A DNA stretch of 51,248 nt, taken from the NCBI GenBank assembly GCA_946886065.1, contig CAMPHU010000005.1, positions 1 to 51,248 of the forward strand, given 5' to 3'. Within the stretch, counting starts at the first letter, position 1. The number at the start of each line of letters is the position of its first letter. Origin of the DNA: an uncultured Massilia sp. GTDB lineage: Bacteria > Pseudomonadota > Gammaproteobacteria > Burkholderiales > Burkholderiaceae. The position numbers were made by a program, and so were the translations under genes. Positions 4,686 to 25,058 of this stretch are shown piece by piece. Under the pieces are notes generated by a model. It ran no database searches, was not told the DNA's origin, and worked only from the letters and a program-made list of their open reading frames with translations.

Positions 4686-4728
4686 AGCATGCTCCTGTCG
4701 CGTTCGCCGCTCTGTACGCAGACGCACG
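4686..4728 (-). promoter_or_regulatory. Palindromic operator with -10 box upstream of the stress gene
   Basis: TGTACG-CAGA-CGCACG occupies 4713-4728. On the minus strand, CATGCT lies at 4691-4686, exactly at the -12 to -7 position expected if the palindrome is centred at -41.5. The predicted start of transcription is near 4679, giving a leader of about 22 nt to the ATG at 4656. Confidence 0.65.
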
Positions 4729-4734
4729 CAAGCC

Positions 4735-4782
4735 GCCTGCCCGGTCCCGAGCGAGCGGCGCGGCCCTCGGGACCGGGCAGGC
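4735..4782 (-). terminator. 17-bp perfect hairpin downstream of mtfA
   Basis: The arms 4735-4751 and 4766-4782 are perfectly complementary over 17 bp with a 14-base loop. It lies between the end of the MtfA-like gene (4808) and the operator of the next gene, so it probably separates the two transcription units. It lacks a U-tract. Confidence 0.5.
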
Positions 4783-4807
4783 GCCATGAGGGCGGCCCCA
4801 GGCCTCG

Positions 4808-5698
4808 TCAGCGCCACTGACCGTAGACCATGCCAGGCGGATCCGGTTCCATCGTGATGGCCACCGGTTCGGGCTGCCATTGACGCGGATCGATCCGGTA
4901 GTATTTGAGGAACTCCCCATACAGGGCCGGATGGCGCGCCGACAGCTGGTAGGGCTGCTCGAAGAAGCTCTCGGTGGCGACGGCGAAGAACTCGGCCGGG
5001 CTGCTCGCGCCATAATGGTCGAGCACGCCGCGCATGCCGAACATGGCCTCATGGCGCAGGTTGGCGTAGTCGCGCGACAGCACCTGGGACCAGCTGCGGT
5101 AGCGTTCGCGGCTGCCCAGGTAGGGCGCGCCGTTGGTGCTGCCCGATTCGCTGTCGAGCTGGTGCGCGAACTCGTGCAGCACCACGTTGTGGTTCGGCGG
5201 CTCCGGGTGGCCGGCGCGGCGCACATGGTCCCAGGACAGGATCACGCGGCCGTCGCCCCAGGATTCGCCCAGCAGGTCCTGGCGGGCTTCGGTCACCACG
5301 CCCGCCACGTCAACCTCCTTGCGCGGCACCAGGAAAGCGCCCGGATAGACCAGGATCGTGTGCAGCGCCGGATACAGGACCGCCGGCCCCTGTTCCGCGG
5401 CGCGGCCCAGCAGCAGCAGGCAGGCCTGGCCGGCGATGGTCACGCGCATCTCGTCGGTGAGCTCGAGGCCGGCGCAGCCGACAAATTTCTTTTCGAATAG
5501 GAATTGCCGGACCATGCGCGCCAGCTTGCGGCGCTGGGCCTGGTCCATGCCGGCATACTGCGCCACGTTGCGCGCCAGTACCGCCACCTGCTCCGGCGGC
5601 AAGGGTTGCGCCAGGGCGCGGCGGCGCCGCCACGCCGGCACCAGCCAGGCCAGCAGCACAGCCAGGGCCAGCCCGGCAAGAATCCAGGCGTCCATCAT
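4808..5698 (-). CDS. mtfA: MtfA-like zinc metallopeptidase (M90 family)
   Basis: A 296-residue protein with an N-terminal hydrophobic segment (about residues 4-21) and the zinc motif HEFAHQLD at 175-182. His175, His179 and a downstream Glu (probably Glu236 in AEFFAV) would bind zinc, and Glu176 is the catalytic base. In enterobacteria MtfA interacts with the glucose repressor Mlc and has peptidase activity; whether that link holds here is unknown. The N-terminal membrane segment is common in betaproteobacterial homologues. The start ATG at 5698 overlaps the stop of the peroxiredoxin gene (ATGA), implying translational coupling. A second in-frame ATG follows immediately at 5695. Confidence 0.87.
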
Positions 5699-6444
5699 TG
5701 CGCCCGCGCGCCGAGCCAGCTCGCCACCTCGTCCGCCCCGCCGATCAGGCGGCCGCCGGCGAACACCTGCGGCCAGGTCAGGCGGCCAGTGACGCCGCGC
5801 AGCACGCTTGCCGTGATCTTCTGGTCTTCGGAAATATCGGTAAACACAATGCCCGCCTCGCCCAGCGCCTGCTTGGCGCGCGCGCAGTGGGGGCAGCCGG
5901 GCCGCGAGAACATCACCACCGGCTCCGGCACCACGGCCTCCGGGTTGAGGTAGCGGAGCATGGTGTCGGCGTCCGACACCTCGAAGGGGTCGCCTTCCTT
6001 GTCCGGCTCGATGAAGATTTTCTCGATCACGCCGTCGCGCACCAGCATCGAATAACGCCAGGAACGCTTGCCGAAACCCAGGTCGCGCTTGTCGACCAGC
6101 ATGCCCATTCCTTCGGTAAAGTCGCCATTGCCATCGGGGATGACGGTGATGTTGGCGGCGTCCTGCCCGGCCTTCCACTGGTTCATCACGAAGGCGTCGT
6201 TGACCGAGATGCAGAGGATATCGTCGACGCCGTTGTCGCGCAGCACGGGCGCCAGCTCGTTATAACGCGGCAAATGGGTCGAGGAACAGGTCGGCGTGAA
6301 AGCGCCGGGCAGCGAAAACACGACCACGGTCTTGCCCTTGAACAGCTCGTCCGTGCTCAGGTCGCGCCATTGGTCGTCGGGACGCGCCTTGAACGTCACG
6401 TCCGGCACGCGCTTGCCCTGCAGGGTCTCGGCACTCGGTAACAT
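5695..6444 (-). CDS. Peroxiredoxin-glutaredoxin fusion (Prx5-Grx hybrid)
   Basis: A 249-residue fusion. Residues 1-165 are a Prx5-type peroxiredoxin with peroxidatic Cys53 in PGAFTPTC and a conserved Arg130. Residues 175-245 form a glutaredoxin with the CPHC active site at 184-187 and the TWPQVF cis-Pro region. The hybrid reduces hydroperoxides with glutathione, as in Haemophilus influenzae PGdx. The start at 6444 is preferred over the GTG at 6450 because AAGGAG is correctly spaced from 6444 and overlaps the GTG. It is the first gene of a pair with mtfA (4-bp overlap). OxyR control would be plausible, but no clear site was seen. Confidence 0.92.
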
Positions 6445-6572
6445 CGTCACTCCTTATCGGTTGAACAGGCGGTCCGGAGACCGTCGCATGGCGGACAGGT
6501 GAGGATTATTGACCGGTTTTCAACGTGCTCGATGCAAATAGTTGTTCACGCAAACACTGTGCAAGGACGCCC

Positions 6573-6601
6573 GAAAAAACAAAACCGCGCACGGGGCGCG
6601 G
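6573..6601 (-). terminator. Rho-independent terminator of the winged-helix regulator gene
   Basis: On the minus strand CCGCGC-CCCGT-GCGCGG (6601-6585) is followed by TTTTGTTTTTT. This is a classic terminator after the gene ending at 6672. Confidence 0.85.
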
Positions 6602-6671: not shown

Positions 6672-7286
6672 TCAGGCGCGTTCCTTGGCAGTCTGGCTCG
6701 GCGCCGGGCCGAACAGTGCGGCCACCAGCGGGTCGCGGGACACCGGGCTGCGGTTCACGCGGATCGCGTAGTGGGTATCGTCGGCCAGGATGTGGAAGTG
6801 GCGGCCGCTGCCGGCCATGTTCTGCTCGCGCAGGCCCGGACGCTCCTTGCGCGGGGTAGTGCCCTCGCGCTTCGGCTGGCAGATCGCCGCCAGGAAGGCC
6901 TTGACGCGCTCCGGATCCGGCGAGATCTGGTACACGGCCTTGCCCAGGTAGGTGGCGGTGCCCTCGATGTAGCGGGCCAGTTCGATCACGCCGGCTTCGC
7001 GCAGGTCACGGATGTATTTGCGGGCGCCCGACGGCGAGAATTTGAGGAACCAGGCGATTTCGTCGGCCAGCATTTCATGGTTCGACAGCTCATTGATCAG
7101 CTTTTGCATGTTCTCGATGCGGCGCTGCGTGGCCGAGGTCGAGCGCACGCGCTCGATGGGCGCCAGCGAGATCGGGGCGCGCTCGGTCGGTTGCGGCGGG
7201 ACGCGTTCGATCAGTGCCGAGTTGCTGGAAGTGTGCACTGCGCCGGTTTCGCCTTGGGCCGCGTTGTGGTGAGTCGTTGCATGCAT
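6672..7286 (-). CDS. Putative winged-helix transcriptional regulator
   Basis: A 204-residue soluble protein. Residues about 55-130 hold a winged-helix-like segment (QKLINELSNHEMLADEIAWF, then SPSGARKYIRDLREAGVIEL) typical of MarR/ArsR-type DNA-binding folds. The N terminus is His/Thr/Ser-rich and probably disordered, and the C-terminal third is basic. No ligand domain is recognised. The start at 7286 was chosen because GGAG lies 9 nt upstream; an upstream ATG would add 25 residues without a ribosome site. It stands divergent from the OmpA gene, with 403 bp between them, so it may act on that promoter, but this is inference. Confidence 0.7.
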   Translation of the reverse strand: MHATTHHNAAQGETGAVHTSSNSALIERVPPQPTERAPISLAPIERVRSTSATQRRIENMQKLINELSNHEMLADEIAWFLKFSPSGARKYIRDLREAGVIELARYIEGTATYLGKAVYQISPDPERVKAFLAAICQPKREGTTPRKERPGLREQNMAGSGRHFHILADDTHYAIRVNRSPVSRDPLVAALFGPAPSQTAKERA

Positions 7287-7689
7287 ATTCTTGAGCTCCA
7301 ATGAAAGAGTGAGACTGTGTGGTCCGGGTCGCTGTGTGTTCGTATGACACCCTGACAACACCTCGGGTTCCGCTTAACTGGACTCAAGATTGCCTGCGCC
7401 AGCCCGTCCGGTCTGTGCGCCATCCAACATTCGACAACATTCCGACAAGCATTTTTGCCCACGTCGGTGGCAGCTTTTCGGCCTCTTTTGTTTCCGCTCA
7501 ACACAAAATGCACCATTTCGGTGCGTTCCGTAGAGAAATGTGGGTTTTCCGTCACTGTTGTAGAATTGCACACGGGCTCCGCTTAGGTGCGCTATCGCAC
7601 CGAAATTGCGGAACTTGCACTGTTAATGTTTATCCAACATCCCTGTCTATTCATGAGATGTCATCTTTTTCAACCTACGGGAGTTACCT
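7287..7689. promoter_or_regulatory. 403-bp intergenic control region with palindromic operator upstream of ompA
   Basis: No gene is seen in this stretch. GGTGCG-CTAT-CGCACC, a perfect-armed palindrome, occupies 7586-7601; GTTAAT at 7622-7627 is one base from the -10 place expected for a site at -41.5. A second palindrome, GCACC-ATTTC-GGTGC, lies at 7510-7524. Its right half (ATTTCGGTGC, 7515-7524) is repeated in inverse at 7597-7606, overlapping the first operator. The region is richer in A+T than its flanks. The predicted leader of about 55 nt ends with GGGAG before the GTG start at 7690. Confidence 0.6.
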
Positions 7690-8727
7690 GTGAATAATTC
7701 GAAGAAAATCGCCCTGGCCATCGCAATGGTGTGCTCGGCCGGCGCCGCCCTCGCCCAGAACGTCAGCCCACAATGGTATGTGCAGCCAAGCATCGTCCAC
7801 GTGAAGCCGGACGCCGACTTCGGCGTGAACGACCGCGACACCGGTGGCGGCCTGCGCTTCGGCCAGGTGGTCAGCCCGCTGTGGGACGTGCAGATCGGCG
7901 GCACCCACACCCGCTTCGACGACAGCGGCGCCCGCTACAACCAGAGCACCATCAGCGCCGACGCGCTGCTGATGCTGTCGCGCGGTAATGTCCGTCCGTT
8001 CGTCCTGTTCGGTATCGGCGTCCAGCGCGACAAGGTCGCCAACGCAATCCGCAACGTCAAGGAAAGCTCCCCGTTCGCCACCGCCGGCATCGGCTTCCAG
8101 GCCGACCTGACCCCGCGCCTGGCCTTCCAGGCCGACCTGCGCAGCGTGCGCGGCTTCCTGAACAGCGACGAGGCCTTCGGCTTCAAGCGCAGCAACAACA
8201 AGTACTTCGCCATCGGCCTGAACTACATGCTGAACCCGCCGCCGGCAGCTGTCGCGACCACCACCACCGTCGCCACCGCAACCGCGCCGGTCGTCGAGGC
8301 CCCGGCTCCGGCCCCCGCCCCGGCACCGGCTCCGGCCCCGGCGCGCTTCGAGAAGATCACCCTGGAAGCGACCAAGCTGTTCAACTTCGACAAGGCCGAG
8401 ATCATCCTGCCGTCGCCGAAGCTGGACGAAATCGCCGCCGCCCTGCAGGCCGACCCGAGCGTCACCGACGTCGACATCACCGGCTACACCGACCGCCTGG
8501 GTTCGGAAAAGTACAACCTGAAGCTGTCGGAGCGCCGCGCCAACTCCGTGCGTGACTATCTGGTCAGCAAGGGTGTGGACGGCAACCGCCTGAAGGCCTA
8601 CGGCAAGGGCGAAGCCAACCCGCTGGTCACCTGCAACCAGAAGAAGCGCGCAGAGCTGATCGCCTGCCTGGAGCCGAACCGCCGCGTCGAGGTCGAGCAG
8701 ATCACCGTCGAGCGCAAGGTGCAGTAA
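7690..8727 (+). CDS. ompA: OmpA family outer-membrane protein
   Basis: A 345-residue protein with a signal peptide (cleavage after about Ala22) and an OmpX/OmpA-like N-terminal beta-barrel to about residue 180. A Pro/Ala repeat linker follows (about 195-218, an AP repeat), then an OmpA C-terminal peptidoglycan-binding domain. The latter shows TGYTDRLGSEKYNLKLSERR and the NRRVEVEQ end. The barrel anchors in the outer membrane and the C-terminal domain holds the cell wall. Translation starts at GTG 7690 with GGGAG six bases before it. Two conserved Cys near the C terminus (TCNQ and IACLEP) are usual in the major OmpA of betaproteobacteria. It is followed by a terminator, so it is probably a single-gene unit. 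Confidence 0.92.
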   Translation: MNNSKKIALAIAMVCSAGAALAQNVSPQWYVQPSIVHVKPDADFGVNDRDTGGGLRFGQVVSPLWDVQIGGTHTRFDDSGARYNQSTISADALLMLSRGNVRPFVLFGIGVQRDKVANAIRNVKESSPFATAGIGFQADLTPRLAFQADLRSVRGFLNSDEAFGFKRSNNKYFAIGLNYMLNPPPAAVATTTTVATATAPVVEAPAPAPAPAPAPAPARFEKITLEATKLFNFDKAEIILPSPKLDEIAAALQADPSVTDVDITGYTDRLGSEKYNLKLSERRANSVRDYLVSKGVDGNRLKAYGKGEANPLVTCNQKKRAELIACLEPNRRVEVEQITVERKVQ

Positions 8728-11522: not shown

Positions 11523-12074
11523 TCATTTGCCGAAGGCGGCTTTCGCGGCGTTCACGCACTGGTCCTTGGCGGCGCCGGCGAAGGCGTCGCATTTTTCCAG
11601 CGCCACCCTGTATTCGGCGGCAATCTTGTCTTCGCGCGCATCGAGGCGCGCTTCGATGGTCTTGCGGTCGGCCTTGGCGTCGGCCTGGGCCGCCACCAGC
11701 ACGGCCTTGGCCTGTTCCATGCAGACATCGCGGTCGTTGCCGGTCAGGGCCGCGCAGCGCACCTTGTCGCGGTCGTAGTTGGCCGAGGCGATGCGCATCC
11801 GCGCCTGGGTATAGGCGGCCAGGGTGTTCTTGTAGGCGGCAGTGGCCTCTTCATCGACGCGCACGCGGGCGGCGCGCGCCTCGGCCACGCACAGATCGTG
11901 GGGATTGCCGGCGATCAGGTCGCACTTCGCGCGCGCCGCCTTGTAGTTGGCTTCGGCGGACTCGCGTGCCTGTTCGTAGGCCGTCTTCGCATCGGGCACC
12001 GGCTGCTGCGCACGGCTTTGTGCGGTCCAGCTCAGGGCTGCGCCGAGCAGCAATAGCGCATGCGAGGTTTTCAT
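11523..12074 (-). CDS. Secreted helical protein with three Cys-pair repeats
   Basis: A 183-residue protein with a signal peptide (MKTSHALLLLGAALSWTAQSRA). The mature part is almost wholly alpha-helical and rich in Ala, Lys and Glu. A motif of the form K/R-C-x6-7-D-x-C-x4-A-(K/R)-A occurs three times (AKCDLIAGNPHDLC, VRCAALTGNDRDVC, EKCDAFAGAAKDQC), suggesting three helical hairpins each closed by a disulfide. The start at 12074 follows GAGAAG. Its promoter region holds the palindrome at 12136-12151. I do not recognise a named family; small proteins of this look are common in Burkholderiales. The protein at 12954-13373 carries one related Cys pair. Confidence 0.8.
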   Translation of the reverse strand: MKTSHALLLLGAALSWTAQSRAQQPVPDAKTAYEQARESAEANYKAARAKCDLIAGNPHDLCVAEARAARVRVDEEATAAYKNTLAAYTQARMRIASANYDRDKVRCAALTGNDRDVCMEQAKAVLVAAQADAKADRKTIEARLDAREDKIAAEYRVALEKCDAFAGAAKDQCVNAAKAAFGK

Positions 12075-12108: not shown

Positions 12109-12151
12109 TTTGTACCAGCCACGCCCGGCGTTTTCTGTTCGGTATCGAACA
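12109..12151 (-). promoter_or_regulatory. Palindromic operator and -10 for the 11523-12074 gene
   Basis: TGTTCG-GTAT-CGAACA (12136-12151) is a perfect-armed palindrome. TACAAA on the minus strand (12114-12109) lies at the exact -10 position for a site at -41.5. The predicted leader is about 27 nt. Confidence 0.65.
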
Positions 12152-12196: not shown

Positions 12197-12239
12197 GGTG
12201 CGGCAGCGCACAGACCCCCTGTGCCCGCATGGCTAATCT
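12197..12239 (+). promoter_or_regulatory. Palindromic operator and -10 for the 12268-12747 gene
   Basis: GGTGCG-GCAG-CGCACA (12197-12212) is followed by TAATCT at 12234-12239, exactly at the -10 position for a site centred at -41.5. This intergenic region therefore holds two separate sites, one for each divergent gene. Confidence 0.7.
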
Positions 12240-12267: not shown

Positions 12268-12747
12268 ATGAAACCTACCCGCACTCTCGCCGCCGTCGTC
12301 GTGGCCGGCGCCGCCCTGCTCACCGGCTGCGCCAGCAACAGCAGCCAGCCGTACAACGACGGCTATGCCAGCGGCGGCTATGCCAGCGGCACCCGCTACG
12401 ACAATGCCAACATGGGCTACGGCACCATCGAGTCGATCCAGGTGACCCAGGCTAACGGCCGCACCAGCGGCACCGGCGCACTGCTGGGCGGCGTGGTCGG
12501 CGCACTGGCCGGCAACCAGGTCGGCAGCGGCAGCGGCCGTACCGCCGCCACCGTGGCCGGCGGCGTCGCCGGTGCAGCGATCGGCAACCGCGTGGAAGGC
12601 AACCGCAACGCCACCGGCCAGGAGCTGTACCAGATCAACATCCGCATGGACAACGGCGAATACCGCACGGTGACCCAGGACAGCGTATATGACCTCCGTG
12701 TCGGCAACCGGGTTCGCCTGGTCGACGGCCGCGTCTATCGCTACTGA
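12268..12747 (+). CDS. Glycine-zipper 2TM-domain lipoprotein (SlyB-like)
   Basis: A 159-residue lipoprotein with lipobox LTGC (Cys22). The mature protein starts with a short Gly/Tyr/Ser tandem repeat (GYASGGYASG). The glycine-zipper pair follows (GALLGGVVGALAGNQVGSGS, TVAGGVAGAAIGNRVEGN), then a C-terminal beta domain (YQINIRMDNGEYRTVTQD, NRVRLVDGRVYRY). This layout is that of SlyB/PcP-type outer-membrane lipoproteins. AGGAGA before 12268 sets the start. The DUF3309 gene follows after 23 bp and is probably co-transcribed. The gene at 21172-21933 encodes a paralogue of its C-terminal two-thirds. Confidence 0.9.
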   Translation: MKPTRTLAAVVVAGAALLTGCASNSSQPYNDGYASGGYASGTRYDNANMGYGTIESIQVTQANGRTSGTGALLGGVVGALAGNQVGSGSGRTAATVAGGVAGAAIGNRVEGNRNATGQELYQINIRMDNGEYRTVTQDSVYDLRVGNRVRLVDGRVYRY

Positions 12748-14695: not shown

Positions 14696-14713
14696 GGCAG
14701 CCCCCGGCGCGGA

Positions 14714-15064: not shown

Positions 15065-15112
15065 GATGTACTCCTTTGTGTCGTTGTGATTGGTGGTATC
15101 GTCCGGCCTGCT

Positions 15113-15646
15113 TCAGGACAGCAGGTCGCGCATGTCGTCGGCGTGCTCCTCCTCGACCGCCATGATGTCGGTGAGCATCTTGACCGTGGTCGGATCCTTG
15201 TCGCCGATGGCCGCGATCATCTGGCGGTAGGATTCGATGGCCACCCGCTCGGCGATCAGGTCGGCGCGCACCATGGCCTGCACGTCCTCGGATTCGTCGT
15301 ACTCGGCATGGCTGCGCGCGGTCAGCGTGGCCGGGTTGAAGTTCGGCGAGCCGTTCAGCTGGACGATGCGCTCGGCGATGCGGTCGGCGTGGTCCTGCTC
15401 CTGCTGGGCATGCTCGAGGAACTCGGCCTTGATGTGGCCGGTGTTGGGTCCGCTCACCGTGTAGTAGTGCCGCTTGTAGCGCAGCACGCACAGCAGCTCG
15501 GTGGCGAGCGCGTCGTTGAGCATCGCGATGACCGCTTCGCGGTCGGCCTGGTAGCCCTCGGTCACTGCGCCTTCGTCGAGGTTGGCCGCGGCGCGGCGGA
15601 TCGCCGCGATGTCGAAGCCGTGCGCCAGCTTGGTCTTCTGTTCCAT
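15113..15646 (-). CDS. Ferritin-like protein (bacterioferritin/Dps-like)
   Basis: A 177-residue four-helix-bundle protein with a complete di-iron set: Glu50, Glu83, His86, Glu133, Glu165 and His168 (ExxH in QEQDHA and VEEEHA). The spacing of the first three equals that of bacterioferritin. No haem-binding Met at the usual place can be assigned, so 'ferritin-like' is safer than bacterioferritin. The start at 15646 follows AAGGA; an upstream TTG is less likely. A 7-bp hairpin (15686-15703) separates it from the OmpA-DUF4398 gene upstream. It probably stores iron or detoxifies peroxide within the stress unit. Confidence 0.87.
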   Translation of the reverse strand: MEQKTKLAHGFDIAAIRRAAANLDEGAVTEGYQADREAVIAMLNDALATELLCVLRYKRHYYTVSGPNTGHIKAEFLEHAQQEQDHADRIAERIVQLNGSPNFNPATLTARSHAEYDESEDVQAMVRADLIAERVAIESYRQMIAAIGDKDPTTVKMLTDIMAVEEEHADDMRDLLS

Positions 15647-15710
15647 AGTCAATCCTTATAAGACGGTAAAAGCCTGCGGTGAACACCGGGCCGGGCGGCC
15701 CGGAACCGCC

Positions 15711-16655
15711 TCAGCGCCCGCCCGCGCGCGGCGGAATCTGCGCGCCCTCGTTCGACAGCACGATCTCGACCCGGCGGTTCAGCTGGCGGTTGCCCGCGCT
15801 ATCGTTCGGCGCCACGGGGAAGGCTTCGCCATAGGCGCGCATCGCGATGCGCTCGCGCGGCACGCCCAGCTGGCCCAGCGCGGTGGCCACGGCGTTGGCG
15901 CGGCGCTGCGCCAGTTCCAGGTTATAGGTCTCGCTGCCGACACTGTCGGTAAACCCTTCGACCAGCACGCTGCGGTTCGGGTTCTGCGCCATCACGTCGG
16001 CCAGCTTGCGCAAGGTCGCCATGCCGTTCGGCGTCAGGCTGGACTTGTCGGTGCCGAACAGCACGTCGCCGATCGTCACCACATAGCCGCGCTCGGTCTT
16101 GACCGCGTGCAGTTCCACCAGCAGGGCTTCGAGCTGGGCTGCGCGCTGGGCCAGCGCCGCGTTCTGCTGCTGGGCGGCCTCGGCCTGGGCCTGGGCGGCG
16201 GCGGCCTGCTGCTGCGCCGTTGCGGCCTGGGCCTGTGCCGATGCGGCCTGGGCCTGGGCGGCCTCGGCTTCGCGCCGGGCGCGTTCGGCCTCGGCGGTGC
16301 GGGCTTCCAGGCGCACGGCGTCGCGTTCGCGCGAGGCATTCGCGATGTCGGCTTCGGCGGCCTTGGTCTTGGCCACTTCCTGGGCGGTGGCGATCTTCTG
16401 CTTGGCCAGGTAAGCCAGGCGGTCGATGTCGTTCAGGCTCTCGCGGCGCGCGGCGGCGGCGTTGGCCTGGTCGAGCGCATCGCTGGCCTGCTTGAATGCG
16501 AGCGGCGCATGGGTGGCGATCTGGGGATTATTGTTGGCGGCGACGAAATCGGCCCTGGCCTGGTCGAGGGTCGGCGTGGTCACCGGGGCGCTGGCGCAGG
16601 CAACGGCCAGCACGGCGGCGGCCAGCATCGAGATCACGGGTTTACGGTTGTTCAT
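15711..16655 (-). CDS. DUF4398 and OmpA-domain outer-membrane protein
   Basis: A 314-residue protein with a signal peptide and a probable lipid-attachment Cys at about 20 (AVACASAP). Residues 30-100 form a DUF4398 helical domain (ARADFVAANNNPQIATHAPL). A long Ala/Gln/Glu coiled coil follows to about residue 180, then a C-terminal OmpA domain (VLFGTDKSSLTPNG, VEGFTDSVGSETYNLELAQR). It would span from the outer membrane to peptidoglycan. The preceding gene at 16749-17198 also carries DUF4398 and lies 93 bp upstream, a pairing seen in many betaproteobacteria. Confidence 0.9.
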   Translation of the reverse strand: MNNRKPVISMLAAAVLAVACASAPVTTPTLDQARADFVAANNNPQIATHAPLAFKQASDALDQANAAAARRESLNDIDRLAYLAKQKIATAQEVAKTKAAEADIANASRERDAVRLEARTAEAERARREAEAAQAQAASAQAQAATAQQQAAAAQAQAEAAQQQNAALAQRAAQLEALLVELHAVKTERGYVVTIGDVLFGTDKSSLTPNGMATLRKLADVMAQNPNRSVLVEGFTDSVGSETYNLELAQRRANAVATALGQLGVPRERIAMRAYGEAFPVAPNDSAGNRQLNRRVEIVLSNEGAQIPPRAGGR

Positions 16656-16748
16656 GGTCTGGTCCTCTTCTTGTTCGGGCGCCTTGGGCGCGGACGCATG
16701 GTGGCCGGCGCGCCGGCCTCCTGCGGCCGGGCGCCGGCGGCTGGACGC

Positions 16749-17198
16749 TTACCGCTGCTGTTGCGGCGGCTGCTGGGTAGTCCCCGACTGGCTGGTGCCC
16801 ATCTGGGTGCTGCCGGCATTGGCGCGGTCGACTTCCTCGCGCAGCACCCGCAGGTCTTCGCTCAGCTGGTTGGCGGCGGCGTTGGCCTTGGCCGAGGTGG
16901 CCTTGCTCTGGGCCAGCTTGGCGTCGGCCTGGGCCTGGATCGCCAGTTCGCGCGCCAGCTTGTAGTCCTTGGCGGCGAGGGCCTGGTTTGCGCGCAGCAT
17001 CTTCGAGCGCGCGGCCGACACCTCTTCGGGGGCCAGCTCGGCGGCTCCGGCGGCCACGGCGTTTTCGACGGCATGGCGCGATACCGCCACGTCGGCAGTC
17101 GCGGGCGCCTTCTGCTCGCTCGCGCAAGCGGCCAGCGCCAGCACCGCGCACAGGCAGCCGAGACGGGCCAGCTGCTTCGTCGGATGATTCTTGTCCAT
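16749..17198 (-). CDS. DUF4398 domain-containing lipoprotein
   Basis: A 149-residue lipoprotein (lipobox LAAC, Cys26). The mature domain is helical: AAGAAELAPEEVSAARSKML and AAKDYKLARELAIQAQADAK, characteristic of DUF4398. The tail is Gln/Pro/Ser-rich. AGGAG precedes the ATG at 17198. It is the first gene of a minus-strand run that continues through the OmpA, ferritin-like, YqjD-like and YqjE-like genes to 13898. Its promoter has the operator at 17260-17275. Confidence 0.87.
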   Translation of the reverse strand: MDKNHPTKQLARLGCLCAVLALAACASEQKAPATADVAVSRHAVENAVAAGAAELAPEEVSAARSKMLRANQALAAKDYKLARELAIQAQADAKLAQSKATSAKANAAANQLSEDLRVLREEVDRANAGSTQMGTSQSGTTQQPPQQQR

Positions 17199-17232: not shown

Positions 17233-17275
17233 GTTATAAACCTGTTATCGGAATCACTCGGTTCGCTGGCGCACA
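17233..17275 (-). promoter_or_regulatory. Palindromic operator and -10 for the DUF4398-led operon
   Basis: Read on the minus strand, TGTGCG-CCAG-CGAACC occupies 17275-17260, and TATAAC (17238-17233) lies exactly at the -10 position for a site at -41.5. The leader is about 27 nt. Confidence 0.7.
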
Positions 17276-17309: not shown

Positions 17310-17352
17310 GGTGCGGCACCGCACATCAATACCGCCCTGCTTGCGCTACGCT
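17310..17352 (+). promoter_or_regulatory. Palindromic operator and -10 for the AsmA gene
   Basis: GGTGCG-GCAC-CGCACA (17310-17325) is followed by TACGCT at 17347-17352, the exact -10 place. As at 12075-12267, each of the two divergent genes here has its own site. Confidence 0.7.
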
Positions 17353-17383: not shown

Positions 17384-19456
17384 ATGGCCGAGACGCCGAC
17401 GCCAGCGGCCACGCATCCCCACGCCGGCCGCAAGAGCAAGAACAAGATCCTCTTGACCATCCTGGGCATCGCCGTGGCGCTGCCCGTGCTGGCCATCGTC
17501 TTCATCCTCACCTTCGACTGGAACCGCGCGCGCCCCTGGATCAACACCCGGGTCAGCGACGCGATCGACCGTCCCTTCGCGATCCGCGGCAATCTCGAGG
17601 TCGAGTGGGAAAGCCCCGCGAAGTCCATGGCGCCCGCCGAGCGCAGCTGGCGCGACCATATCCCCTGGCCCTATCTCTACGCCAACGATGTGTACGTGGG
17701 CAACCCCGCCAGCATGCCGGTGCGCGACATGGCCAGCGTACGCCAGTTCTCGTTCTCCCTCAATCCGTTCGCGCTGCTGCGCAAGACCATCCACATTCCC
17801 CTGCTGCGCTTCGATGCGCCGCGCGTGGACCTGCTGCGCACCGACGAAACGCACAACAACTGGACCTTCAAGCGCAACCAGGAAAAGTCGCGCTGGAAGC
17901 TCGACCTGGAGCGCGTGGTCCTGACCGACGGCGTGGTGCACATCAAGGATGCCGTGACCAAGGCCGACGTCACGGCCCAGGTGCGCACTCTCGACAAGGA
18001 CCCGAAGTACGGCGTCGGCTGGACCCTGAGCGGCACCTACAACGGCGCCCCTGTGAAGGGCGGCGGCAAGGCAGGCGCGGTGCTCTCGCTCAAGCAGCAG
18101 AGCACGCCCTACCCCATCCAGGCCGACATGCGCTCCGGCAAAACGCGGATCGCCGTCGAAGGCACGGTGACGCGCCCGGCGAAGCTGGCGGCGCTCGACC
18201 TCAGGCTCGACCTGGCCGGCCCCAGCATGGACCAGCTGTATTACTTCACCAAGGTGCTGCTGCCCACCACCGGGCCATTCTCGACCTCGGGGCACCTGAC
18301 GGGCACGCTCGGCGAGGACAGCAAGCGCTGGATCTACGAGGATTTCAAGGGCAAGGTCGGGTCGAGCGACATCGGCGGCCGGCTCGAATACGTCACCGGC
18401 GGCAAGCGCCCCACCCTCTCCGGCAACGTGCGCTCGAAGCAGCTGGTGTTCGCCGACCTGGCGCCGCTGATCGGCGCCGATTCCAACAAGGCCAAGCAGG
18501 AGCGCAATGCCGAGACCCTGCAGCCTGAGGGCAAGGTGCTGCCGGTCGAGGAATTCAAGACCGAGCGCTGGACCGTGCTGGACGCCGACGTGCGCTTCGC
18601 CGCCGACCGCGTCATCCGCGACAAGGCCCTGCCGATCAGCAAGCTGTCGACCCACCTCACCATGAAGGACGCGGTGCTCACCCTGGATCCGCTGGAGTTC
18701 GGCATGGCGGGCGGCACGGTGCGCTCCACCATCCGCCTGGACGGCAGCGGGCGCGAAGGCAAGAACGCGATCAAGTCCACGGCCAAGGTCGCGGCGCGCA
18801 AGATCCAGATCAAGCAGCTGTTCCCGCAGGTCGAGCAGATCCAGCAGGCGACGGTGGGCCAGGTCAATGGCGACGCCCAGCTGTCCGCGGTCGGCAACTC
18901 GGTGGCGAGCCTGCTGGCCCGCTCGAACGGCGAGCTGAAGGCCGTGATCGACCGTGGTACGGTGAGCAAGATGCTGCTGGAAATGGCTGGCCTCAATGTC
19001 GGTAACATCATCCTGACCAAGCTGTTCGGCGACAAACAGGTCCAGATCAATTGCGTGGCGGCCGATTTCGCCGTCGCCAACGGCATCGCCAAGACGCGCA
19101 GCTTCGTGGTCGACACCGAGGAAGCCCTGATCACGGTCGACGGCGCCGTCAACCTGGCGGGAGAACAGCTCGACCTGCGCATCAATCCGCAGACCAAGGC
19201 CTTGCGCATCTTCTCGCTGCGCGCGCCGCTCTACGTGCGCGGGCCGTTCAAGAAGCCCGACGTGTCGATCGACAAGGGCGTACTGGCACTGAAGGCCGGC
19301 GGCGCGGCGGCGCTGGCCGCGGCGGCGGCGCCGGTGGCCGCCCTGCTGCCCCTGATTAACGCGGGGCCGGGCGAGGACAGCGATTGCGCCCGCCTGGTGG
19401 CCCAGGCGAAGGAAAAACCGAGCGCTCCGCCGCCGGGCAAGGTCCAGCGGCGCTGA
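17384..19456 (+). CDS. AsmA family protein
   Basis: A 690-residue protein. A basic cytoplasmic start is followed by one membrane helix (about 21-43, ILLTILGIAVALPVLAIVFI) and a long periplasmic beta-rich region. The FDWNRARPWINTRVSDAIDR stretch after the helix is typical of AsmA, as is the C-terminal AsmA domain (VDTEEALITVDGAVNLAGEQ and LRIFSLRAPLYVRGPFKKPD). AsmA-like proteins are thought to bridge the envelope and help carry phospholipid to the outer membrane. AGGAAGG precedes the ATG at 17384. It is transcribed alone or with the BON gene that follows, although that gene has its own operator. Confidence 0.92.
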   Translation: MAETPTPAATHPHAGRKSKNKILLTILGIAVALPVLAIVFILTFDWNRARPWINTRVSDAIDRPFAIRGNLEVEWESPAKSMAPAERSWRDHIPWPYLYANDVYVGNPASMPVRDMASVRQFSFSLNPFALLRKTIHIPLLRFDAPRVDLLRTDETHNNWTFKRNQEKSRWKLDLERVVLTDGVVHIKDAVTKADVTAQVRTLDKDPKYGVGWTLSGTYNGAPVKGGGKAGAVLSLKQQSTPYPIQADMRSGKTRIAVEGTVTRPAKLAALDLRLDLAGPSMDQLYYFTKVLLPTTGPFSTSGHLTGTLGEDSKRWIYEDFKGKVGSSDIGGRLEYVTGGKRPTLSGNVRSKQLVFADLAPLIGADSNKAKQERNAETLQPEGKVLPVEEFKTERWTVLDADVRFAADRVIRDKALPISKLSTHLTMKDAVLTLDPLEFGMAGGTVRSTIRLDGSGREGKNAIKSTAKVAARKIQIKQLFPQVEQIQQATVGQVNGDAQLSAVGNSVASLLARSNGELKAVIDRGTVSKMLLEMAGLNVGNIILTKLFGDKQVQINCVAADFAVANGIAKTRSFVVDTEEALITVDGAVNLAGEQLDLRINPQTKALRIFSLRAPLYVRGPFKKPDVSIDKGVLALKAGGAAALAAAAAPVAALLPLINAGPGEDSDCARLVAQAKEKPSAPPPGKVQRR

Positions 19457-19491: not shown

Positions 19492-19534
19492 GGTGTGTTG
19501 CCGAACAGATCACAATCGTGTGCGCGGCTATGCT
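19492..19534 (+). promoter_or_regulatory. Palindromic operator and -10 for the BON/glycine-zipper pair
   Basis: GGTGTG-TTGC-CGAACA (19492-19507) matches the shared palindrome with one arm mismatch (T instead of C). TATGCT at 19529-19534 is at the exact -10 position. Confidence 0.6.
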
Positions 19535-19565: not shown

Positions 19566-19895
19566 ATGAACGGAAACCGCACCATGCAGCACTTCGGACC
19601 AACCGCCGCCCTGCTGGCTTGCCTGGCGATGGGGGCGCTGCCCGGGTGTGCCTCCACCGCGCCGGGGCGCGGCGTCGCCGAGATCGTCGACGACGCCGCG
19701 ATCACGGCGGGCGTGAAGGCGGCGTTGGTGGGCGATCCGGAATTGAAGGCATCGAACATCAATGTCGAGACCTATCAAGGCGTCGTCCAGCTGAGCGGAT
19801 TCGTGAGCTCGGCGGAGAGCGTGGCGGCCGCTGCAACGGCTGCCCGTACCGTAAGAGGCGTGAAATCGGTCAGGAACGACCTGCGCCTGAAATAG
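19566..19895 (+). CDS. BON-domain lipoprotein
   Basis: A 109-residue lipoprotein with lipobox LPGC. One BON domain follows (EIVDDAAITAGVKAALVGDP, NVETYQGVVQLSGFV, GVKSVRNDLRLK). It is a close paralogue of 11116-11439. The start at 19566 gives the signal a positive charge (MNGNRTMQHF); the ATG at 19584 is possible but would leave an uncharged N-region. The gene is followed after 23 bp by a small glycine-zipper lipoprotein gene on the same strand. Confidence 0.87.
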   Translation: MNGNRTMQHFGPTAALLACLAMGALPGCASTAPGRGVAEIVDDAAITAGVKAALVGDPELKASNINVETYQGVVQLSGFVSSAESVAAAATAARTVRGVKSVRNDLRLK

Positions 19896-19918
19896 AACCC
19901 ACCGATAGGAGATTCACC

Positions 19919-20140
19919 ATGAAAACCATCAAACAGCTCGTCGTTACCGCATCGCTGGCAACCGCCGCCCTCGGCCTGGCCGGCTGCTCGGGCATGTCGC
20001 AGCAGGACAAGAACACCGCCATCGGCGCCGGCGCCGGCGCGGTCATCGGCGGCGCCCTGACCGGCGGCAGCGCGGCAGGCACCGTCGGCGGCGCTGCCGT
20101 CGGCGGCGTGATCGGCAACCAGGTCAAAAAGACCAACTAA
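19919..20140 (+). CDS. Small glycine-zipper lipoprotein (OsmB-like)
   Basis: A 73-residue lipoprotein: signal with lipobox LAGC (Cys23), then a short Gln/Asp linker and a single glycine-zipper hairpin (AIGAGAGAVIGGALTGGSAA, GTVGGAAVGGVIGNQVKK). Size and layout resemble OsmB. TAGGAGA precedes the ATG. It is the last gene before a strong terminator, forming a two-gene unit with the BON lipoprotein. Confidence 0.88.
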   Translation: MKTIKQLVVTASLATAALGLAGCSGMSQQDKNTAIGAGAGAVIGGALTGGSAAGTVGGAAVGGVIGNQVKKTN

Positions 20141-21046: not shown

Positions 21047-21116
21047 AGCGTAACGGCGCGTCCCCTGCGAGTATGTACGGTGACGCACGGAAGTGCAGTT
21101 CGTTCCTAGAGACAAT
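21047..21116. promoter_or_regulatory. Shared bidirectional operator between the Crp/Fnr gene and the glycine-zipper gene
   Basis: TGTACG-GTGA-CGCACG lies at 21074-21089. To the left, TACGCT on the minus strand (21052-21047) is the exact -10 place for the regulator gene. To the right, GACAAT at 21111-21116 is the exact -10 place for the gene at 21172. One site could thus serve both promoters. Confidence 0.65.
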
Positions 21117-21171: not shown

Positions 21172-21933
21172 ATGAACACCACCCCGACTTCCCCCGTGAA
21201 GGGCCGCCTTCACCCATTGATGATCCTGGCCGCGCTCGCCGTCCTGCTGTTCTGCATGATCGGCACCGCGGCGATCATGGGCTGGATCCCCTCTTCCATC
21301 GGCGGCAACGCCAACCGCCAGCTGAGCGAGGCCGACCGCGTGGCCCTGGCCGCAGCCCTGCCGCAGGGCGCGCCGCAACCGGCCCCGGGCGTGGTGCCGC
21401 TGGCGCCCGCGCAGCAGGCCGGCATGGCCCAGGCTTATGCGCCCCAGCCCGGCGCGGCCTATCCGGCGCAGCCTGCGCCGCAGGCCTATGTCCAGCCGCA
21501 GCCGCCGGCCCCCGTGGTGCACGAGCCTGAGCCGGTGAGCAAGCCGGCTCCCAGGAAAGCCACCCAGGTCGCCGCCGCCGACAGCGGCCGCAACTGGTGC
21601 TCGAACTGCGGCAACGTCGAATCGGTCCGCACCATCAAGCAGCGCGCCGAAGGCAGCGGCCTGGGCGCGGCCGGCGGCGCGGTGCTGGGCGGCCTGCTGG
21701 GCAACCAGATCGGCGACGGCAGCGGGCGCAAGATCGCCACCGCCGCGGGCGCCATCGGCGGCGCCGTGGTCGGCAACCAGGTCGAAGGCAACATGAAGGC
21801 CACCACCAGCTATGAAATCCGGGTACGCCTGGACGACGGCACCCTGCGCACCTTCCGCCAGAGCAGCCCGCCGCAATGGCGCTCGGGCGACCGCGTGCGC
21901 ATCGTCAAGGGCCGCCTGCGCTCGGTCGCCTGA
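21172..21933 (+). CDS. Glycine-zipper 2TM-domain protein with N-terminal membrane anchor
   Basis: A 253-residue protein. A membrane helix at about 14-38 (LMILAALAVLLFCMIGTAAI) anchors it in the inner membrane. A Pro/Ala/Gln-rich linker (about 60-130) leads to a CSNCG motif, a glycine-zipper pair (GAAGGAVLGGLLGNQIGDGS, AAGAIGGAVVGNQVEGN) and a C-terminal beta domain (YEIRVRLDDGTLRTF, DRVRIVKGRLRSVA). The last 115 residues are paralogous to the lipoprotein at 12268-12747, but here the anchor is a helix instead of a lipid. AAGGAC precedes the ATG. Confidence 0.88.
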   Translation: MNTTPTSPVKGRLHPLMILAALAVLLFCMIGTAAIMGWIPSSIGGNANRQLSEADRVALAAALPQGAPQPAPGVVPLAPAQQAGMAQAYAPQPGAAYPAQPAPQAYVQPQPPAPVVHEPEPVSKPAPRKATQVAAADSGRNWCSNCGNVESVRTIKQRAEGSGLGAAGGAVLGGLLGNQIGDGSGRKIATAAGAIGGAVVGNQVEGNMKATTSYEIRVRLDDGTLRTFRQSSPPQWRSGDRVRIVKGRLRSVA

Positions 21934-22013: not shown

Positions 22014-22024
22014 CTAATTGGCAA

Positions 22025-22067
22025 TGTGCGGCAGCGCACGGAAGAACGGATGAGCTACCCCGAAAAT
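22025..22067 (+). promoter_or_regulatory. Palindromic operator and -10 for the 22126-22350 gene
   Basis: TGTGCG-GCAG-CGCACG (22025-22040) is followed by GAAAAT at 22062-22067, at the exact -10 position. The leader is about 52 nt and ends with GGGAGAA. Confidence 0.65.
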
Positions 22068-22125: not shown

Positions 22126-22350
22126 ATGAACAGCCTGGCGTGGATTGGCATCATCATCTGGGGAGTGGTCATCACCGGTTTCGGCCTGCTGTCGGCCGAG
22201 CCCCCGTCGGAAGCGAGCGGCACGCTGCAAGCGCACGACGTCGTATTCCTGGTGGCGGGCGGCCTGCTGACCTGCCTGATCGGCGTCACCGGCCTGATGG
22301 GCCTGATGGGTTGGATCCCCGGATTGCGCACGGAAAAAAGTTGTGTTTAA
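22126..22350 (+). CDS. Small two-helix membrane protein, unknown
   Basis: A 74-residue protein with two hydrophobic segments (SLAWIGIIIWGVVITGFGLL and VVFLVAGGLLTCLIGVTGLM) joined by a short polar loop (SAEPPSEASGTLQAHD). GGGAGAA precedes the ATG. An in-frame upstream ATG at 22087 has no ribosome site. It has its own operator upstream. The next operator, for the lmo0937-type gene, begins one base after its stop codon. The family was not recognised. Confidence 0.78.
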   Translation: MNSLAWIGIIIWGVVITGFGLLSAEPPSEASGTLQAHDVVFLVAGGLLTCLIGVTGLMGLMGWIPGLRTEKSCV

Positions 22351-22393
22351 TGTACGCCATCGTACGGTGCTCGAGTACGGCGGAAAGCATACT
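22351..22393 (+). promoter_or_regulatory. Palindromic operator and -10 for the lmo0937-type gene
   Basis: TGTACG-CCAT-CGTACG (22351-22366) is a perfect-armed palindrome. CATACT at 22388-22393 lies at the exact -10 place. The predicted leader is about 40 nt with AAGGAGG at its end. Confidence 0.68.
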
Positions 22394-22440: not shown

Positions 22441-22587
22441 ATGCTCTACACCATCGCCGTTATCCTCATCGTCCTTTGGCTGCTGGGCCTGGTGACGTCG
22501 TACACCATCGGCGGCTTCATCCACATTCTGCTGGTTGTTGCCGTCATCATGATTCTGGTACGACTGATCAGCGGGCGCGGCATCTAG
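22441..22587 (+). CDS. lmo0937 family small membrane protein
   Basis: A 48-residue protein: two hydrophobic helices (MLYTIAVILIVLWLLGLVTS and GGFIHILLVVAVIMILVRLI) and a short basic end (SGRGI). The pattern of a first helix, the GGFIH turn and the second helix is that of the lmo0937/DUF5670 family, widespread small stress-associated membrane proteins without known function. AAGGAGG sets the start. It is followed by a terminator. Confidence 0.88.
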   Translation: MLYTIAVILIVLWLLGLVTSYTIGGFIHILLVVAVIMILVRLISGRGI

Positions 22588-22626: not shown

Positions 22627-22678
22627 AATCCGTTTCGCGGTCGCGCCTGAACGGGGTGCGACTCCGAAACGGATTTTT
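22627..22678 (+). terminator. Terminator with 11-bp stem
   Basis: AATCCGTTTCG (22627-22637) pairs with CGAAACGGATT (22665-22675), with an inner GTCGC/GCGAC pairing, and a T run follows. It ends the lmo0937-type gene only 17 bases before the next ATG. Confidence 0.75.
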
Positions 22679-22695
22679 ATGTTGAGGAGAATTCT

Positions 22696-23364: not shown

Positions 23365-23390
23365 TGGCACTGCCGCGATTCGTTGCGCGG

Positions 23391-23422
23391 AAAGCTGCCG
23401 GTGGAGACCGGCAGCTTTTTTT
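23391..23422 (+). terminator. Rho-independent terminator
   Basis: A perfect 12-bp stem (23391-23402 with 23407-23418, loop GGAG) runs into a T run. It ends the OmpA/glycine-zipper gene. Confidence 0.93.
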
Positions 23423-23528
23423 ATTTCCGGCCGCGGTAAGACCGTCGCTCCGGGCTGGCGGCAGCTGGAGCGGTGCGCAAGCGACTGGCGCCCAGGGGTA
23501 TCCTGAGCGCATACGCACAGGAGGCTTT

Positions 23529-24116
23529 ATGACCGCCGACGACCGCATCCGCATCATCAAGGAAGACATCCTCTCCGACAACTACTTCCAGCTCAAGAAG
23601 CTCAGCTACGAACAGCGCCGCCGGGACGGCAGCTGGCAGCGCCAGACGCGCGAAGTCTACGCCAACGCCTCGGGCGTGGCCGTGCTGCTCTACGACCCCG
23701 AACGCCGCACCGTGCTGCTGACGCGCCAGTTCCGCCCGGGCGCGCGCCTGGCGGGCCACGACGGCTTCCTGGTCGAAGTGCCGGCCGGGATACTCGACGA
23801 TGCCAGCCCCGAGGACCGCATCCGCGCCGAGCTGATGGAGGAAACGGGCTTCGAGGCGCGCAAGCTGCGCAAGCTGATGAGCCTGTTCGCCAGCCCGAGC
23901 TCATCGACGGAACAGGTCCACTACTTCCTGGGCGAATACGGCAAGGCCGGCAAGAAGGAGGAAGGCGGCGGGGAACCGGAGGAAGGCGAGGACATCGAAG
24001 TCCTCGAGATGGACATCGACCAGGCCCTGCGGCAGGTGCGGGACGGCGGCATCCGCGACGCCAAGACCGTGATCCTGCTGCAGGCCCTGAACGAAGAACT
24101 CAGGACGCCTCGGTGA
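23529..24116 (+). CDS. nudK: NUDIX hydrolase, NudK-like (GDP-mannose or ADP-ribose pyrophosphatase)
   Basis: A 195-residue NUDIX enzyme. The Nudix box runs from Gly87 to Phe108 with Glu95, Glu101, Glu104 and Glu105; the usual Arg before Glu101 is Ala100, much as NudK has Lys there. The N-terminal beta-strands (YFQLKKLSYEQRRRDGSWQR) and the LVEVPAG motif point to the NudK/ADP-ribose group. An acidic Lys/Glu/Gly insert (about 139-160) interrupts the C-terminal part. AGGAGG precedes the ATG. The last 17 bases overlap the convergent aminotransferase gene. Confidence 0.85.
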   Translation: MTADDRIRIIKEDILSDNYFQLKKLSYEQRRRDGSWQRQTREVYANASGVAVLLYDPERRTVLLTRQFRPGARLAGHDGFLVEVPAGILDDASPEDRIRAELMEETGFEARKLRKLMSLFASPSSSTEQVHYFLGEYGKAGKKEEGGGEPEEGEDIEVLEMDIDQALRQVRDGGIRDAKTVILLQALNEELRTPR

Positions 24117-24936
24117 AGGCCAGGTAGAGTTCGCGGGCGCGGCGCGCCACGGGACCGGCTTCCAGCGAGCGGCCCTCGTAGCGCGTGCACGGCGTCACCT
24201 TGCCGTAGTTGCCGGTGCTGAAGATCTCGCGCGCCGAGTCCAGTTCTTCCGGCTTGACGCTGCGCTCTTCCACCTGCACGCCTTCCTGCGCCAGCAAAGC
24301 GATCACGCGCGCGCGGGTGATGCCGGCCAGGAAGGTGCCGTTCAGGGCCGGGGTCACGAGCTTGCCGTCTCCGGTGACCAGGAACAGGTTCGAGGACGCG
24401 AACTCCGCCACGTTGCCGGCGGCGTCCAGCATGATCGCCTGGTCGAAGCCGCGCTCCTTGGCTTCACGCATGGCGCGGGTGGAGTTGGCGTACAGGGCCG
24501 AGGCCTTGGCGTCGGTCGGGGCCATGCTCGGCTGCGGACGGTGCAGGGTCGACAGGCAGGCCGAGAAACCGGCGAAGGGCGGCAGCGGCGCGTCGAACAG
24601 GGTCAGGGCGAACTGGCTCTTCTCGGCCACCGGGATCAGGAAACCCTCGGAGCCGAACACCAGCGGGCGGATGTAGAGCTCGGCGTCCGCCGGGAACCTG
24701 GCCACGCCTTCACGCACCAGCTGCTCCATCTCGTCCACGCTCAGCGGGCAGCGCAGGCCCAGTTTTTCCGCCGATGCGATCACGCGCTCCAGGTGCGGGC
24801 GCAGGTCCGGCAGCTTGCCGCGGATCGCGCGCGCGCCGTCGAAGACAGAGGAACCCAGCCACAGGCTGTGGTCCATCGCGCCATACAGAGGAGTGTTGCC
24901 TTCGGCCCATTGGCCGTTGAAATAAGTCAGGTACAT
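24100..24936 (-). CDS. Class IV aminotransferase (branched-chain amino acid aminotransferase-like)
   Basis: A 278-residue PLP enzyme of fold type IV. Features include FNGQWAEGNTPLYGAMDHSL, SSVFDGARAIRG and the RPLVFGSEGF strand. The PLP-binding Lys is in TDAKASALYAN, and EFASSNLFLV and FLAGITRARVIALL follow. Class IV enzymes include branched-chain aminotransferase, D-amino-acid aminotransferase and aminodeoxychorismate lyase. The N-terminal pattern favours the first. The start at 24936 follows GGAAG; an ATG seven codons upstream is possible. It stands divergent from the recombinase-family gene. Confidence 0.83.
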   Translation of the reverse strand: MYLTYFNGQWAEGNTPLYGAMDHSLWLGSSVFDGARAIRGKLPDLRPHLERVIASAEKLGLRCPLSVDEMEQLVREGVARFPADAELYIRPLVFGSEGFLIPVAEKSQFALTLFDAPLPPFAGFSACLSTLHRPQPSMAPTDAKASALYANSTRAMREAKERGFDQAIMLDAAGNVAEFASSNLFLVTGDGKLVTPALNGTFLAGITRARVIALLAQEGVQVEERSVKPEELDSAREIFSTGNYGKVTPCTRYEGRSLEAGPVARRARELYLAFTEAS

Positions 24937-25015
24937 GTTCTTCCACGTTGGTAACAAAATCGGTCCAGTGTATCGGCTTCCGCGGCCATCCGTCCAGTCT
25001 GTACAGCCGGCTTAC

Positions 25016-25058
25016 TGTTCGTTGCCGAACCATGTCGACCGCCCTCCTCGCGTACACT
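25016..25058 (+). promoter_or_regulatory. Palindromic operator and -10 for the recombinase-family/cardiolipin synthase pair
   Basis: TGTTCG-TTGC-CGAACC (25016-25031) is followed by TACACT at 25053-25058, at the exact -10 position. The predicted leader to the ATG at 25085 is about 20 nt and has no good ribosome site. Confidence 0.62.

Follow-up and report, generated by a model that had tools for sequence, protein, structure and literature searches.

A palindromic operator at class II spacing suggests an autoregulated Crp/Fnr-type envelope and general-stress regulon in Massilia and its relatives

A 51,248-nucleotide stretch from an uncultured Massilia sp. (contig CAMPHU010000005.1 of assembly GCA_946886065.1, positions 1–51,248; hereafter the window) carries a series of 16-base-pair (bp) palindromes close to TGTNCG-N4-CGNACA, each ahead of a gene, many of them for envelope or stress-type proteins. 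This arrangement raises the question of whether the palindromes act as operators and, if so, which protein reads them and with what effect on transcription. A gene for a Crp/Fnr-family regulator (20248–20976, minus strand) lies among them. On comparative sequence evidence, we assign a probability of roughly 0.86 to the reading that the sites are class II operators of this protein, which would be an autoregulated and probably cyclic AMP (cAMP)-independent activator of an envelope and general-stress regulon.

A sequence-only reading of the window had listed eleven such palindromes. All eleven are present at their coordinates, with each 16-mer showing zero to two mismatches from TGTNCG-N4-CGNACA, and an independent codon-usage gene finder placed all of them between genes. 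The exact pattern KGTNCGN4CGNACM (KGTNCGNNNNCGNACM) occurs six times in the window and is intergenic in all six cases, against a non-coding share of just 15.6%; when one mismatch is tolerated, 15 of the 21 matches are intergenic. The TGT.CG palindrome with one mismatch is found at 12 intergenic and 3 coding positions, whereas eleven permuted control palindromes, when pooled, gave 5 intergenic and 16 coding matches. At three mismatches, the window holds 261 matches against 256 ± 15 expected by chance, which is no excess, and thus only near-exact matches are informative. The list proved to be real throughout but probably one site short. The overlooked palindrome at 7414 (TGTGCGCCATCCAACA, one mismatch) faces a neighboring gene with a −10 hexamer at the exact spacing, and this site and its −10 are letter-identical in loci L228 and L250, the two relatives that were checked and whose stretches cover the place; it is a probable twelfth operator. 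Three other candidates were rejected. The site at 22655, near an OmpA lipoprotein gene, has an unfit spacing and, as read by eye, lies within a terminator-like inverted repeat (22620–22680, after the lmo0937 gene), while the intergenic one-mismatch sites at 23504 and 34640 have NANNNT at the required spacing in neither direction.

The spacing between the palindromes and the promoter elements bears on their mode of action. When each site is centered at −41.5, the twelve hexamers assigned to positions −12 to −7 read as previously listed; position 2 is occupied by A in 11 of them (binomial P = 6.6e-6), and position 6 by T in 9 (P = 3.4e-5). NANNNT occurs in 9 of the 12 promoters at this spacing, the highest count among 60 spacings scanned, for which the runner-up reached 5. 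In the ten directions leading away from the assigned genes, T ends the hexamer in 3, A occupies position 2 in 1, and both coincide in none. The −10 of ompA was described as one base off, and the same shift is found in L228 and L250; the hexamer shifted by one base conforms to NANNNT in the window (TAATGT) and in these two relatives (TAATCT and TATGCT). The class II activator geometry proposed from the window, in which the spacing is deduced from the position of the −10, is strongly backed by the related loci and whole genomes described below.

Conservation was assessed in 80 loci, the best of the 135 around relatives, which derive from species-level genomes of Massilia, Telluria, Janthinobacterium, Rugamonas, Duganella and others and extend up to 10 kb from the regulator. 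An operator precedes the regulator gene in 79 of the 80 loci, within 260 bp in 78 of them and at −312 in one (L055, the same as L167); the sole locus without it (L019) is cut off by a contig end. Across these 79 loci, the 16 bp of the regulator operator are conserved at 99% on average, compared with 59% and 62% in the 40-bp flanks. The scan of relatives that had been suggested as a check placed 515 of 527 operator matches between genes in the 80 loci and the window, where 18.9% of the DNA is non-coding. The 783 site–gene pairs were reduced to 328 non-redundant ones (below 65% identity downstream, with both directions of divergent pairs kept). Their profile reads TnTGTDCGnYRnCGHACAnA, with position 4 free save for rare C and CG fixed at positions 5–6; the −10 that comes after it occupies −12 to −7, with A at −11 in 64% and T at −7 in 52%. 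No −35 signal is present in this profile, so that, as judged from the −10 position, the promoters combine a site centered at −41.5 with a −10 and no −35 element. At the exact spacing, 152 of the 328 pairs have NANNNT; the 45 spacings compared give a median of 16 and a runner-up of 48, in agreement with the original proposal. Within these 152 hexamers, C is found at −8 in 87, which is suggestive in being compatible with help from sigma-S but does not show sigma-S dependence.

The sites also follow individual genes through the related loci, where a site was counted if its predicted transcription start lies 0–200 bases before the gene; two sites in one intergenic region cannot be told apart by this measure. 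The glycine-zipper gene divergent from the regulator gene (21172) has an exact site in 75 of 75 orthologues, with NANNNT at the exact spacing in all 75. The site of the lmo0937 gene is exact in 58 of 67 orthologues and within one mismatch in 67, all with NANNNT at the exact spacing, and that of the 74-residue protein is exact in 47 and within one mismatch in 53 of 54, with a −10 in 52. For the PF10136 gene, 36 exact sites (47 of 47 within one mismatch) are accompanied by a −10 at the exact spacing in 36 and one base off in 11, and the regulator gene itself has a site in 74 of 79 by this measure, with 62 and 12, respectively. The homologues of the glycine-zipper gene at 12268, some of which may represent the other glycine-zipper gene, carry an exact site in 77 of 78 and NANNNT in 53. 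The AsmA orthologues carry an exact site, either that of 17310 or its neighbor, in 69 of 73 and NANNNT at the exact spacing in 33, and the BON orthologues are weaker (18 exact, 37 of 72 within one mismatch). No orthologue of the YflT, OmpA, M90 or YihY query genes turned up in the 80 loci, and these four are uninformative there. Among control genes, exact sites (one-mismatch sites in parentheses) number 0 (1) of 73 for DUF4398-OmpA, 0 (7) of 72 for ferritin, 0 (8) of 26 for Nudix, 0 (0) of 36 for an AI-2E transporter and 3 (8) of 74 for the OmpA lipoprotein. An aminotransferase gene that shares its intergenic region with the PF10136 gene has 20 (28) of 40, but in its own direction NANNNT never stands at the exact spacing. 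Orthologous genes thus keep both site and −10 while most neighboring control genes lack them, in favor of the proposed reading.

The predicted regulator matches the HTH_Crp_2 family above its cutoff, with the cyclic-nucleotide-type family PF00027 just below (7.2e-6; 26.3 versus 27.5 bits). An AlphaFold model from a 40-row alignment (predicted local distance difference test score, pLDDT, 86.9) has CRP, GlxR, Vfr and FNR structures as its top matches in the Protein Data Bank (PDB), with a best E of 2.6e-15, and the barrel together with the HTH_Crp domain places the protein in the Crp/Fnr superfamily. The recognition helix region reads LGVRRVGVTKAA. In an alignment of 40 members (A1), Gly185, Arg187 and Arg188, which form the LG-x-RR motif, and Cys226-Tyr227 are invariant, and Cys147 and Cys224 are nearly so. 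The conserved cysteines lie in the contexts AAC-x-RFH (Cys147) and C-x-C-Y near the C terminus (Cys224 and Cys226), and they could form a metal or redox switch. The Glu and Arg of the phosphate-binding cassette are the residues of the cAMP pocket; when aligned with cAMP-binding GlxR (4cyd), the regulator has Ala and Thr in their places, which sets it outside CRP proper and makes cAMP an unlikely ligand. FNR carries an N-terminal [4Fe-4S] cysteine cluster and recognizes TTGAT-N4-ATCAA; the regulator has no Cys in residues 1–44 and the operator is unlike the FNR site, so the protein is not of the FNR type. Nor is it NtcA, as the NCBIfam NtcA equivalog model scored 20.7 bits against a cutoff of 244.95. 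The frame TGT-N10-ACA is common to the Crp/Fnr superfamily, and the operator of the 328-pair profile has this frame, to which the regulator is predicted to bind.

If this protein reads the operator, the two should occur in the same genomes. The co-occurrence figures treat genomes as independent and are uncorrected for relatedness. In 300 genomes of the order of Janthinobacterium LM6 (G003), operators number 2.14 per Mb against 0.90 for the control in the 101 with a member of the regulator subfamily (E <= 1e-20); the 199 lacking one have 1.02 against 0.89 (Mann–Whitney P = 1.6e-14, kinship ignored). In 195 genomes of the family, the 53 with an orthologue (69% or more) have 3.07 per Mb against 0.80, and all 53 exceed the control. 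The 85 with only distant members have 2.31 against 0.99 (73 above), and the 57 without a member have 0.85 against 1.02 (14 above). In 150 genomes of the phylum, the 12 with a close member (E <= 1e-45) hold 89 operators against 38 controls; for the 14 whose member is remote the counts are 75 and 65, and for the 124 that have none they are 350 and 359, with 53 of the 350 coming from G019. From these densities by genome class at the levels of order, family and phylum, the operator accompanies the closer members of the subfamily.

Whole-genome counts were made in relatives of the window's genome. The extended operator (KGTDCGNYRNCGHACM) occurs 16, 16, 15 and 15 times in four Massilia-type genomes, compared with 0, 2, 3 and 3 for the reversed pattern, and in the nearest relative 5 of the 16 fall in a 9.6-kb stretch next to the regulator gene. 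The expectation that such sites lie between genes held only in part outside the cluster: among the 49 of 62 extended sites outside the known loci, 26 are intergenic, two of which are the ompA site of the cluster, and 23 are coding. The intergenic sites that face a gene 10–120 bases from the predicted start form 23 pairs, with NANNNT at the exact spacing in 11. In Janthinobacterium LM6, a wider pattern matched 59 sites; of the 50 examined, 17 were intergenic and 33 coding, and five of the 17 lie in the 20-kb stretch holding the regulator gene and one in the next stretch. Given the coding shares of 23 of 49 and 33 of 50, many matches outside the cluster are due to chance, and sites must be selected by location or by their −10. 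Targets elsewhere include LigD, a pyridoxamine-oxidase-like protein, a BON protein, DUF3597 and a TonB-like protein, and a protein of 443–464 residues with no Pfam family, which by eye is YflT-like, recurs in three genomes, divergent from a small membrane protein. The LigD, pyridoxamine-oxidase-like and further BON targets suggest a regulon of general stress broader than the envelope. The label "envelope-stress" given to the cluster is thus fair for its gene content and appears too narrow for the regulon as a whole.

These observations can be combined into a mechanism, in which we infer physical binding by the regulator, activation rather than repression, and sensing of stress without cAMP. 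The regulator dimer would bind TnTGTDCGnYRnCGHACAnA centered at −41.5, replace the missing −35 element and recruit RNA polymerase in the class II fashion to promoters of envelope and general-stress proteins. The stress signal would be sensed without cAMP, possibly through the conserved cysteines. The assignment of the regulator as the binder rests on its CRP-like fold, its own operator in 79 of 80 loci, the operator density that follows it and the clustering of sites beside its gene. It would also control its own gene through the site at 21074, shared with the divergent glycine-zipper gene. The arrangement is conserved, with GACAAT, GAGAAT, GAAAAT or CACACT as the divergent −10 at this operator in most related loci. 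Since a single dimer would have to serve a pair of divergent promoters, at which two polymerases should not fit together, this arrangement suggests that the regulator gene and its glycine-zipper neighbor compete for transcription.

Table 1. Predicted operators and genes of the cluster in the window
Feature	Coordinates	Strand	Remark
Operator of YflT-like gene	4713..4728	-	-10 CATGCT
Presumed YflT-like general-stress-type protein, 185 aa	4099..4656	-	Pfam: sub-threshold glycine zipper only
Probable operator of gene 6672-7286(-)	7414..7429	-	-10 CAATCT, exact spacing
204-aa protein, divergent from ompA	6672..7286	-	no Pfam family
Operator of ompA	7586..7601	+	-10 TTAATG; one base off usual spacing
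OmpA-family outer-membrane protein	7690..8727	+	PF00691, PF13505
Operator of 183-aa secreted protein gene	12136..12151	-	-10 TACAAA
183-aa protein, signal peptide-like start	11523..12074	-	no Pfam family
Operator of glycine-zipper lipoprotein gene	12197..12212	+	-10 TAATCT
Glycine-zipper lipoprotein	12268..12747	+	PF05433
Operator of DUF4398 operon	17260..17275	-	-10 TATAAC
Likely operon: DUF4398 lipoprotein, DUF4398-OmpA, ferritin-like, DUF883, Holin_3_6-type membrane protein	14309..17198	-	inferred from spacing
Operator of asmA	17310..17325	+	-10 TACGCT
AsmA-family protein	17384..19456	+	PF05170 E=4.6e-95
Operator of BON-domain lipoprotein gene	19492..19507	+	-10 TATGCT
BON (OsmY-like) lipoprotein and small glycine-rich protein	19566..20140	+	PF04972; PRK10568 OsmY 3.3e-19, below cutoff
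Crp/Fnr-family regulator gene, 242 aa	20248..20976	-	PF13545 HTH_Crp_2 E=1.5e-15
Operator common to regulator gene (-) and glycine-zipper gene (+)	21074..21089		-10 TACGCT 21047-21052(-); GACAAT 21111-21116(+)
Glycine-zipper 2TM protein, divergent from regulator gene	21172..21933	+	PF05433
Operator of 74-aa membrane protein gene	22025..22040	+	-10 GAAAAT
74-aa predicted membrane protein	22126..22350	+	no Pfam family
Operator of lmo0937-family gene	22351..22366	+	-10 CATACT
lmo0937-family (DUF5670) 48-aa membrane protein	22441..22587	+	NF033488, PF18919
Operator of PF10136-PLDc operon	25016..25031	+	-10 TACACT
PF10136 ("site-specific recombinase") and PLD-domain cardiolipin synthase-like gene, overlapping	25085..28584	+	

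The genes behind the sites (Table 1) have the envelope and stress content ascribed to them earlier, to which the regulator gene, served by the site at 21074 and missing from the earlier list, must be added. The YflT-like name of the first gene is taken from that list, and we adopt it as an assumption. A cardiolipin synthase-like gene does belong to the operon behind the site at 25016, but as its second gene, with the PF10136 gene directly behind the operator. The PF10136 protein also shows a weak match to a transporter family, and its "recombinase" name therefore looks doubtful.

The subfamily is present in several copies. In other genomes of the order its members often stand close together, with two or more in a 3.7-kb stretch in thirteen loci; one genome in the family sample (G455) gives nine subfamily matches, and another genome (G002) also carries a member with the helix LGVRREGVTEAAGRLQ. 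In eight loci of Massilia-type genomes (L178–L185), a related palindrome that is altered in one arm (TGTTCGGCACCGGACT and variants) lies 175–226 bases upstream of a paralogue of about 40% identity, and it is perhaps the paralogue's own operator.

Several observations weigh against the proposed assignment. In all 15 genomes checked, the subfamily is represented by two members or more, and in eight Massilia-type genomes the additional one is taken to be the paralogue of about 40% identity, with the helix LGVRRESITAAAGKLQ, which may read the same sites. Of 26 divergent members from other parts of the order, only 14 are preceded, in the 450 bp upstream, by an operator that has no more than one mismatch, and in four of these it is exact; exact matches numbered 0 of 26 for the reversed pattern and 0 of 26 inside the gene. 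Two conserved sites mostly lack a consensus −10: 66 of 70 DUF4398 orthologues have an exact site (17260 or its neighbor) but just 3 show NANNNT at the exact spacing, and for the 183-residue protein the corresponding numbers are 52 of 55 (12136 or its neighbor) and 5. The uncorrected kinship counts on the same side, as does the fading of the surplus above E 1e-45 in the phylum. Moreover, some site-rich genomes show no clear member: five genomes of the family (G350, G354, G377, G453 and G463) have 9–13 operators each with no member above the threshold, and G019 of the order sample, at 3.7 Mb, carries 53 exact operators compared with 2 control matches; its sites perhaps belong to a repeat family or to another regulator. 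A profile search for members in these six genomes and G145 gave only two weak partial matches (G463 and G019).

One alternative is that the sites are read mainly by the second paralogue, with its LGVRRE helix, or by several paralogues together. The multiple copies, the one-arm-changed palindrome ahead of the LGVRRES paralogue in eight genomes, and the 2.31 operators per Mb still found in family genomes with only distant members all fit this alternative. The sites, however, cluster tightly around the RVG-type gene, whose operator is nearly invariant, the operator density is highest in genomes with its orthologue, and one arm of the paralogue's own site departs from the pattern (such as GGACT or AGACT); we thus regard this alternative as unlikely. 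An unlinked regulator, such as a cAMP-CRP/Vfr-type or FNR-type protein or one of another family, could account for the site-rich genomes without a member, and the frame TGT-N10-ACA is common to the superfamily. It appears very improbable, because the half-site TGTDCG is unlike those of CRP (TGTGA) and FNR (TTGAT) and the operator density tracks the presence of the regulator subfamily.

The same protein might instead act as a repressor or a dual regulator. Repressors occur in the Crp/Fnr family, and at 21074, which lies between divergent promoters, polymerases should exclude each other. This seems improbable, since the sites stand where a −35 region would be, at a constant class II distance, the 328-pair profile has no −35 of its own, and the spacing drifts by at most one base at the best-conserved promoters. 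That the palindromes are chance matches or structural DNA, such as terminators, repeats or methylation motifs, would agree with the chance-level count of the three-mismatch pattern and with the 33 of 50 coding matches in Janthinobacterium LM6, and is contradicted by the intergenic location, the fixed −10 spacing, the conservation among orthologues and the reversed-pattern controls; we give it almost no weight. The reading of class II operators served by the regulator at 20248–20976 is accordingly preferred. As a tentative and rather doubtful extension, the cAMP-independent Crp/Fnr subfamily with the LG-x-RR helix and the C-x-C-Y tail, multicopy in Burkholderiales, might constitute a general-stress switch whose members share one operator code, with paralogues bearing different sensors converging on the same envelope and stress promoters.

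The assignment would link an apparently undescribed Crp/Fnr subfamily to an operator and a regulon, with one such site ahead of the regulator gene itself. The operator offers a route to the stress signal behind many small envelope proteins of beta-proteobacteria, of the lmo0937, DUF4398, DUF883, BON and glycine-zipper kinds. It may also be used for regulon annotation in genomes with a close member. The sequence-only reading knew of no description of this operator, and the portions of the open-licence literature covered by our search likewise yielded none that could be recognized, either of the operator or of the protein. The kind of system is known; its operator, subfamily and regulon appear undescribed in that literature.

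One of the closest known systems is Escherichia coli CRP/CAP at class II promoters, which shares the superfamily and fold and likewise combines a 16-bp TGT-N10-ACA palindrome, a center at −41.5 and no −35 element. The half-site differs (TGTGA in CRP/CAP, TGTDCG here), as does the cassette, in which Glu and Arg of CRP/CAP are aligned through GlxR with Ala and Thr, and the targets here are envelope and stress proteins. NtcA, of the cyanobacterial Crp family, recognizes GTA-N8-TAC, which operators with A at the fourth place and its mirror also contain; the present operator, however, leaves position 4 free (C being rare) and fixes CG at positions 5–6, and the NtcA model scores far below its cutoff. 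RedB of Rhodobacter capsulatus is a Crp/Fnr protein of a previously uncharacterised subgroup that acts on energy metabolism, with a reported motif that is a non-palindromic AT-rich 12-mer (PMC9603854). This motif differs from the present operator, and RedB is set apart from the subgroup described here on the comparison of motifs rather than of protein sequences. Finally, general-stress regulons of the RpoS type overlap in the kinds of targets, which include OsmY/BON, YqjD/ElaB-like DUF883, ferritin-like proteins and LigD, whereas what unites the genes described here is a Crp-type operator rather than just a sigma-factor promoter.

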